Shown here: piece by piece, positions 1,033 through 30,766 of the stretch
Layout of the letters: every line of letters begins with the position of its first letter
How positions within the stretch are numbered: position 1 is the stretch's first letter
The notes under the pieces: generated by a model
Database searches by the model: none
What the model saw: the letters and a program-made list of their open reading frames with translations, nothing else
What the model was told of the DNA's origin: nothing
Virus record (IMG/VR): IMGVR_UViG_3300025135_000016
Coordinates: 1 to 30,766 of that record
Direction: 5' to 3' (one strand)
From: a virus
DNA length: 30,766 nt
Position numbers and translations under genes: made by a program

Positions 1033-1098
1033 AATATAAAGTTTAAGATTCGAATTATTTAGATTTATTTGTTTAGTAATCGTAACGTAGTGAAGATT
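1030..1098 (-). repeat. Duplicated leader, copy 1
   Basis: This stretch resembles 1422-1494. Both begin (plus strand) with CATAATATA, contain GATTCGAA and a T/A-rich middle, and end with CGTAACG-AGTGAAGA. Both lie immediately upstream of a leftward ATG. The conserved distal block (read leftward TCTTCACT-CGTTACG) may be a protein-binding site or promoter part; no clear TTG/TAnnTTTG pair is visible. Confidence 0.5.
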
Positions 1099-1145: not shown

Positions 1146-1424
1146 TTAGAATGGAAGATCATCTTCTTCTTCCATCTCAGCATACACATACCCTACTGCA
1201 ACCTTTGTTGAGAAGTACATTTCCAACTCGTGAGGCTTAAAGTGAAACCCCGAAGCATGTGCTATCGATTGAGCCTTACTACGAAGAATGCTGTCTATTG
1301 AAGGCATATCGTCTTCTGGACCACACTCCATTCTAATCTGTGCTAAGTCGTTATAGACATCACACAAGTAATCGTTTGTTCGCAGGTCCATAGCTATTTG
1401 AGCTAATACATTTTCTCTGTTCAT
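1146..1424 (-). CDS. 92-aa protein with an SSB-like acidic tail (EEEDDLPF)
   Basis: The body of this small protein is not recognised. The N-terminal two thirds look alpha-helical (about residues 3-30 and 42-60) and show no sign of the OB fold of single-strand binding proteins; at 92 residues it is also shorter than a usual SSB of about 110-180 residues. Its last residues are EMEEEDDLPF. That closely matches the acidic tip of bacterial SSB (DDDIPF in E. coli; DDLPF-like in many Bacteroidota), the docking peptide for RecQ, ExoI, PriA, RecO and the clamp loader. I infer that it recruits or blocks SSB-binding host or phage proteins. It could instead be a minimal phage SSB-like accessory protein, or the match could be chance in an acidic tail. 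It is the first gene of the leftward array and follows a duplicated leader. Confidence 0.65.
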   Translation of the reverse strand: MNRENVLAQIAMDLRTNDYLCDVYNDLAQIRMECGPEDDMPSIDSILRSKAQSIAHASGFHFKPHELEMYFSTKVAVGYVYAEMEEEDDLPF

Positions 1425-1494
1425 AATATATGTTTTAATGATTCGAAAGATTTAAATTTATTAGTTGATTAATTCGTAACGAAGTGAAGAATCT
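1422..1494 (-). repeat. Duplicated leader, copy 2
   Basis: Second copy of the leader described at 1030-1098, directly upstream of the ATG at 1424. The best-kept part is CGTAACGAAGTGAAGAAT (1475-1492) against CGTAACGTAGTGAAGATT in copy 1. As the first leader of the leftward array, this is where an early promoter would be expected. Confidence 0.5.
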
Positions 1495-3397: not shown

Positions 3398-3868
3398 ATG
3401 ACAAACACATGGTTTAACGTAAAGGTTAAGTATACAAAGCAGTTTGATGATGGTCGAATTGGACGTGTATCGGAACAAATTTTAGTAGATGCTTTATCAT
3501 TTACTGAGGCTGAGAGTAGAAGCTACAAAGAGATGCTTGAAAATTTAGCTGGAGAATCATCAATTGAAGCCATTCAGAAAAAAAACATTTCTGATATATT
3601 TGGTTATGATGATGGTGATCAATGGTATTCTGCAATTTTAGAGTTCGTATCTTCGGATGCTGATTCAGGGCGTGAGAAAAAGGTTAAGCATGAGATGTAT
3701 CTAAATGCTGATAATTTAGAACAAGCTCATTTGAGGTTGCAGGATTCGGTAAAAGATATGATTGTATCTTATCAGATCAAGTCGATTAAAGAAACGAAGG
3801 TTGTAGAAGTGTTTCCTTACGTTCCAGAAAAGGTGGAAGAAGAAAATGCTAACGAAGAAGAAAATTAA
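3398..3868 (+). CDS. DUF4494-like protein
   Basis: The start (WFNVKVKYTKQFDDGR, then LVDALSFTEAESR) matches what I recall of DUF4494, small proteins common in Bacteroidota and their phages with no established function. The 156-aa product looks like an alpha/beta domain of about 135 residues plus an acidic tail (VEEENANEEEN) typical of a disordered end. There are no cysteines and no membrane segment. It sits between the resolvase and co-chaperonin genes with short gaps, so it is co-transcribed with them. An A-rich stretch ending in TACATAATG precedes the start. Confidence 0.7.
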   Translation: MTNTWFNVKVKYTKQFDDGRIGRVSEQILVDALSFTEAESRSYKEMLENLAGESSIEAIQKKNISDIFGYDDGDQWYSAILEFVSSDADSGREKKVKHEMYLNADNLEQAHLRLQDSVKDMIVSYQIKSIKETKVVEVFPYVPEKVEEENANEEEN

Positions 3869-3873
3869 AAAGT

Positions 3874-4179
3874 ATGAATAGTCCATTTAAAAAAATGTTG
3901 GGTAAGAGAATATTAATTCCTTTTCCAACGGAAGATGAAAAGAAAAAAAGTACGATCATCTTAGATGATAAAATTCAAGCTGATATGTCAGATGAGTTAA
4001 TCAAAAAGTATTTACGCATTCCTGTAATACAAGTTGGGGATGAAGTAGAAAGAGTATCTCCTGGGGATGAAATTTATATTCCTGCGCGAATGCTTGCACC
4101 GGGTAGGGCCGAATCGTTAGAAATTAATGGTATAAGATATTTCATTATAGGTGAAAACGATATAGCTGCCGTATATTAA
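3874..4179 (+). CDS. GroES-like co-chaperonin
   Basis: The 101-aa protein follows the Cpn10 pattern: an N-terminal strand (LGKRILIPFP), a stretch of about 25 residues in the place of the mobile loop, a central VIQVGDEVERVSPGDEIYIP segment, and the C-terminal YFIIGENDIAAVY, which matches the usual I-x-x-E-x-D-I-x-A-V ending. Cpn10 rings cap the GroEL barrel. Phage examples are T4 gp31 and RB49 CocO, which let host GroEL fold phage capsid proteins. No GroEL gene is in the window, so host GroEL is the likely partner, with the capsid or portal protein as a plausible client. It is the last gene of its operon and is followed by a strong terminator. Confidence 0.85.
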   Translation: MNSPFKKMLGKRILIPFPTEDEKKKSTIILDDKIQADMSDELIKKYLRIPVIQVGDEVERVSPGDEIYIPARMLAPGRAESLEINGIRYFIIGENDIAAVY

Positions 4180-30505: not shown

Positions 30506-30766
30506 ATGGCAGAATGTTGTAAAGAAGGACCTAGAGGACCAAGAGGTTTACAAGGAGAAAGAGGAATCCAAGGGGTACAAGGGGTACAAGGTATTCAAGG
30601 AGAACCGGGTCTTACAGGGCCAACAGGGGCTAACGGAATTCAAGGAGTTCAAGGAGAACAAGGTATTCAAGGAGAACCAGGTCCTGCTGGTCTTAACGGA
30701 ACAAATGGTGCACCTGGAACTCCGGGAGTAAATGGTTCTAATGGTACCGATGGGGAACCTGGACCT
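30506..30766 (+). CDS. Collagen-like fibre protein, truncated by the window end
   Basis: From ATG 30506 the frame opens MAECCKEGPRGPRGLQ and continues as near-unbroken Gly-x-y triplets (GIQGVQGVQGIQGEPG, GANGIQGVQGEQGIQG, then GTPGVNGSNGTDG) up to the last base, 87 codons, with no stop. Such repeats form a collagen triple helix and are common in phage fibre shafts. The two cysteines at the N-terminus may clamp the trimer. The C-terminal head lies outside the window. It starts one base after the previous stop. Confidence 0.8.
   Translation, partial: MAECCKEGPRGPRGLQGERGIQGVQGVQGIQGEPGLTGPTGANGIQGVQGEQGIQGEPGPAGLNGTNGAPGTPGVNGSNGTDGEPGP

Follow-up and report, generated by a model that had tools for sequence, protein, structure and literature searches.

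The locus described here raises the question of why a small phage protein should end in the docking peptide of bacterial single-stranded DNA-binding proteins (SSBs) when the rest of it does not resemble an SSB. The SSB tip, DDDIPF in Escherichia coli, serves bacterial enzymes of DNA repair and replication as their main address label, and the docking peptide itself is well known. We have analyzed a virus record of 30,766 bases (the window), in which a 92-aa ORF is located at 1146–1424 on the minus strand, with the ATG at 1424 and the stop at 1146–1148. Its last ten codons (1149–1178, minus strand) read EMEEEDDLPF, and the final seven residues, EEDDLPF (1149–1169), are identical to the docking tip of Bacteroidota SSBs. 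The C-terminus is ...YVYAEMEEEDDLPF, with Pro-Phe as the final two residues and the stop directly after them. A previous sequence-only reading had described this ending at the exact C-terminus, and the ORF and its translation, on the minus strand, bear it out.

The ORF, its phage and the likely host

The codon score of this frame was +0.155 bits per codon, the best of the six (the others went from -0.41 to -0.89), and the chance of a stop-free frame of 91 codons is 0.0004 at the base composition of the window. Among the window ORFs of at least 40 aa, only this one ends in PF. The structural genes of the window are on the plus strand and the 92-aa ORF is opposite to them, being the first clear minus-strand gene past the divergent junction. 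From this position we infer that the ORF is expressed early, and its strand is referred to here as the early one. The stretch directly before the start (1425–1490, minus strand), read from the sequence, holds CTTCACTTCGTTACGA and TATATTATG and is a possible early promoter or leader. The same leader, CTTCACT(T/A)CGTTACGA ... TATATTATGAA, is found again in a similar second copy (about 1036–1095, minus strand) before the next small minus-strand ORF; the motif occurs twice in the window, and 19 related records lack it.

The capsid protein of the window matches the Pfam crAss capsid family PF23898 (E 1e-29), the terminase and the portal match PHROG families, and relatives of the capsid were found too. 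These three genes assign the window to a crAss-like phage (Crassvirales), of which it is a fragment. A Bacteroidota host is inferred from the tip, the crAss-like kinship and a DUF4494 protein encoded at 3398–3868 on the plus strand (E 5e-43). Among 14 control genomes this family was matched only in Bacteroides. The protein had no match in 40 related records, and its gene may have been acquired from a host element. Next to it, at 3874–4179 (plus strand), there is a small protein that we named GroES-like by eye, with relatives of about 33–38% identity in five related loci; the late block of crAss001 has one gene annotated as a 10-kDa chaperonin. The final ORF (30506–30766, plus strand), cut by the end of the window, starts a collagen-like GxxGxxG repeat.

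A G-rich non-coding element was also detected between the early and late genes, at 1576–1609 in the late-strand orientation (plus strand), with the form GGGGTA[CG].., about 22 bases and GGGG. Further copies are located at L103:19232-19376, L108:10313-10457, L116:503-647, L119:9355-9499, L126:16572-16716, L127:9519-9663, L137:3314-3458, L149:4599-4743, L150:5053-5197, L395:5988-6132, L401:12182-12326 and L414:84-228. In the alignment of 14 sequences the distance between the two G runs is nearly constant, with little conservation inside, and in most of them the element sits at the divergent junction; one copy is present in crAss001 as well. Rfam gave no match. The element may act as an origin of replication, as a promoter of the phage or as a site for protein binding.

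The body of the 92-aa protein and the families that share its tip

The 92-aa protein had no homologue among 50,697 phage records, 72,556 plasmids and 2.9 million viral contigs, nor in the GTDB genome contigs, where the pattern searches reach close relatives only and some collections may omit records very close to the window. Neither was there any in 40 related records or in 62,348 stop-to-stop frames. No credible family match was obtained in Pfam, PHROG or PADLOC; a RelA_SpoT match in Pfam was rejected (E 0.23, far below the cut-off), and the PADLOC-DB defence profiles gave no family for this protein or for six other tip carriers described below. The body is acidic (pI 4.9, net charge -5), and the AlphaFold2 model, made from the single sequence, has four helices, no strand and a low-confidence tail, at a pLDDT of 60 that is too low for fold assignment. 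When this model was used in fold searches, nothing credible was matched (the best PDB Z was 5.2). The body is described here as probably helical, a prediction of low confidence.

Comparison with the SSB families locates the likeness in the tip. The Pfam SSB family (PF00436) does not match the 92-aa protein and, when aligned by hhalign to a profile of 42 Bacteroidota SSBs, it covers 11 tip columns only, at 82% identity, so that its SSB likeness is limited to the docking peptide. With bacterial SSBs it shares the last seven residues, their position at the exact C-terminus and a disordered end; unlike them, it has no detected OB fold, SSB body or long linker. DUF3127 (PF11325) was without match in the window or in 20 related records. 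The DUF3127-like, SSB-related proteins of Bacteroidota (a cluster named by eye) have the same EEDDLPF tip, but on OB-type bodies of about 120 aa, and the hhalign alignment with them (25 columns, 20% identity) is restricted to the end of the 92-aa protein. The gp32-type SSBs (PF08804) had no match in the window or in 14 related records. We considered, and dropped, the possibility that these phages encode an OB protein without the tip in addition to the tip carrier; the candidates in relatives lacked an SSB signal. In the sequence-only reading, the frame was judged to be shorter, and seemingly more helical, than a normal SSB allows, and it was proposed to look for an OB-fold body and to compare the tail with the SSB of the predicted host. 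As far as the profiles and the model reach, this judgement holds: no SSB family matched, the model is helical (though only at the pLDDT given above), none of the tests run shows an OB-fold SSB body, and the tail is that of the SSBs of the inferred host phylum.

We have scanned two collections, prokaryote genomes and IMG/VR, with a DNA pattern for EEDDLPF followed by a stop; the counts are samples. Of the 80 loci listed for the prokaryote genomes, nearly all belonged to Bacteroidota and, among the matches listed, 70 of the 77 carriers of at least 60 aa fell in a single body-based cluster made of canonical SSBs and DUF3127-like proteins (the latter recognized by eye). The matches listed in IMG/VR included one phage protein cluster ending in KDPFEEDDLPF (L159, L174, L184, L186, L199 and L235). 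L159 matches Phg_2220_C, and its cluster appears to consist of replication proteins of other phages with an SSB-type tip. Like the 92-aa protein, these DnaD-like proteins are non-SSB phage proteins with EEDDLPF at the exact C-terminus; they differ in belonging to a known replication-protein family, to other phages and probably to another host phylum. Also among the matches listed in IMG/VR were small proteins with this ending, of 45 aa (L189 and L237), 75 aa (L198 and L230), 70 aa (L218) and 81 aa (L228), with no Pfam match above the cut-off where tested, and these may mimic the tip in the same way.

Tip carriers in related crAss-like phages

Since the 92-aa protein has no homologue, selection on the tip was examined in related phages, found by means of the capsid protein and the terminase. 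In 20 crAss-like records, with 1,688 gene calls (obtained by greedy ORF calling, not with a gene finder), we found eight proteins ending in a hydrophobic residue followed by Pro-Phe with at least two acidic residues in the seven before, versus 0.54 expected from the frequencies of the end residues. The excess has a Poisson p of about 1e-7, uncorrected for relatedness; the eight proteins represent six independent bodies of 92, 116, 151, 253, 265/276 and 471 aa, mutually unrelated. In the 17 records with known late strand (1,601 gene calls), hydrophobic-Pro-Phe ends were found in 10 of the 646 early-strand genes and in none of the 955 late-strand genes, which were free of Pro-Phe ends of any kind. 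One of these ten, the NNYPF end of a 120-aa protein, is probably due to chance, since its apparent relatives end differently, and the tips of two carriers are weakly acidic (NNELPF and MNDFPF).

The carriers of the related phages (116, 151/156, 253, 265/276 and 471 aa) resemble the 92-aa protein in their strand, in the acidic-hydrophobic-Pro-Phe end and in matching no SSB family, but their bodies are unrelated to it. A similar tip is present in related phages, where the sequence-only reading had suggested looking, albeit on unrelated early-strand proteins and not on homologues of the 92-aa protein. The carriers of 265 and 471 aa are basic (body pI about 9.4), and some carriers have a linker before the tip. 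The 471-aa family (L394:16358-17773, minus strand, and its homologue in G042, both on the early strand with an SSB-type tip) matches the PcfJ-like Pfam family PF14284, which conjugative elements are known to carry. For the 265-aa carrier, AlphaFold2 with five sequences gave a mixed alpha/beta body with a disordered tail (pLDDT 62); the best PDB matches of this model were to phosphohistidine phosphatase (Z 8.2 over 88 residues). Searching for three other carriers in phages by tblastn gave no matches.

Each of the four carrier pairs that we compared retains Pro-Phe. In three carrier families, three to four of the last four residues were identical versus only 2–4 of the 15 columns before them. 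Thus, in the 471-aa family (91% identity) the last four residues are identical and 4 of the 15 preceding columns are kept; the 116-aa family (76% identity over the aligned positions) has an identical DDGLPF end despite an insertion of eight residues in the linker; and the 156/151-aa pair, only 26% identical overall, keeps Pro-Phe. In the 265/276-aa pair Pro-Phe is kept while the residues before it vary (two of the last four identical), and the linker is fairly conserved (9/15). The tail can also be absent: in the 265-aa family, two members stop after LLSSAV, and three of the 156-aa family end in DEYPLDQ. Two phages with DEYPLDQ ends (G041 and G042) have the tip instead on the 471-aa protein, and no carrier was found in the near-complete relatives G010 and G032 or in the first 97 kb of the cultured crAss001. 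These family members without tail and phages without carrier indicate that the function of the tip is dispensable or otherwise done. From these comparisons, the tip is common but not universal in these phages and appears to change carriers. Being found on the early strand only, on unrelated bodies and with Pro-Phe retained within families, it looks to be under selection and mobile between carriers.

Possible roles of the tip

Proteins reading the SSB tip in E. coli include DnaG, PriA, RecO, ExoI and Pol III chi, although this list comes from E. coli and may not be that of the host. Through the tip, the SSB of E. coli recruits 17 proteins or more (PMC10018359). The pocket that receives the SSB tip accommodates the terminal Phe and its carboxylate, and the acidic residues face a basic rim (PMC5872125). 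As the 92-aa protein has the tip of its likely host at the exact C-terminus, it should fit the same pockets; by analogy, its Pro-Phe end and the preceding acidic residues would enter the basic pocket of the host proteins that read the SSB tip. The tip most likely docks there, in host DNA enzymes, as a competitor or as an adaptor. For the 92-aa protein, small and acidic, competition for host SSB partners or their sequestration early in infection would be the more likely action, while the basic carriers, which are larger (265 and 471 aa), would be as likely to act as adaptors that deliver a host partner to the replication machinery of the phage. Some retrons sense phage SSB (PMC12887533), which by analogy hints at one possible use of the tip.

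Other explanations have to be weighed. The tip could be read by a partner encoded by the phage itself, the carriers being parts of the phage replication apparatus that the tip would connect with a primase, helicase or recombinase of the phage having an SSB-tip pocket. No carrier is found off the early strand, the one that encodes the primase, helicase and polymerase in crAss001, and the Phg_2220_C replication proteins also end in EEDDLPF; however, a tip identical to that of the host's own SSB is necessarily already read by host partners, and a fixed replisome component would not be expected to vary from phage to phage as the carriers do. We regard this explanation as unlikely. The carriers could also be functional phage ssDNA-binding proteins of a non-OB or unrecognized fold with the usual tip. 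The phage SSB is indeed not accounted for, as no PF00436, DUF3127 or gp32 match was found in the related records searched, and the basic 265- and 471-aa carriers with a linker before the tip would fit such a role. But the body in the window is acidic, short and predicted helical, the 92-aa protein gives no SSB signal outside the tip, and the carrier bodies are mutually unrelated, one family being PcfJ-like, all of which makes this quite improbable.

The C-terminus could otherwise have a different meaning, such as an acidic tail of another role or a C-terminal protease signal, or resemble the SSB tip by chance. Acidic C-termini (at least two acidic residues in seven) are common in these phages, with 340 of the 1,688 gene calls, and the 92-aa protein is known from one sequence only. 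Yet it is the combination of acidic residues and Pro-Phe that exceeds expectation, hydrophobic-PF ends are confined to the early strand, and Pro-Phe was kept in every pair compared. We consider this explanation very unlikely.

We therefore favor, as reasonably probable, that the 92-aa protein is an early phage protein that displays the SSB docking peptide of the host on a non-SSB body. The suggestion of the sequence-only reading, that the protein may compete with SSB partners or redirect them, is thereby supported in part. The similar tip on unrelated early proteins suggests, on the sequence comparisons, a borrowed docking signal that would capture or redirect host DNA enzymes. A wider proposal is that this crAss-like group commonly keeps one early protein with the host SSB tip, and that the tip has moved between unrelated carriers as a selected, portable mimicry by which the phage would seize host enzymes of DNA repair and replication; we put it forward tentatively, as plausible rather than probable.

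In the open-access papers searched, among which most subscription journals are missing, we came across no phage protein other than SSB described as mimicking the SSB tip, nor a description of the tip on several unrelated non-SSB early-strand proteins of crAss-like phages. A phage that labels non-SSB proteins with the SSB tip could hold several host enzymes by means of one short peptide. Acidic residues combined with Pro-Phe, placed at the very C-terminus of an early protein, provide a simple sequence rule to search for more examples and, if the proposal is true, a function would be available for part of the numerous early proteins that are still without a name in crAss-like phages.
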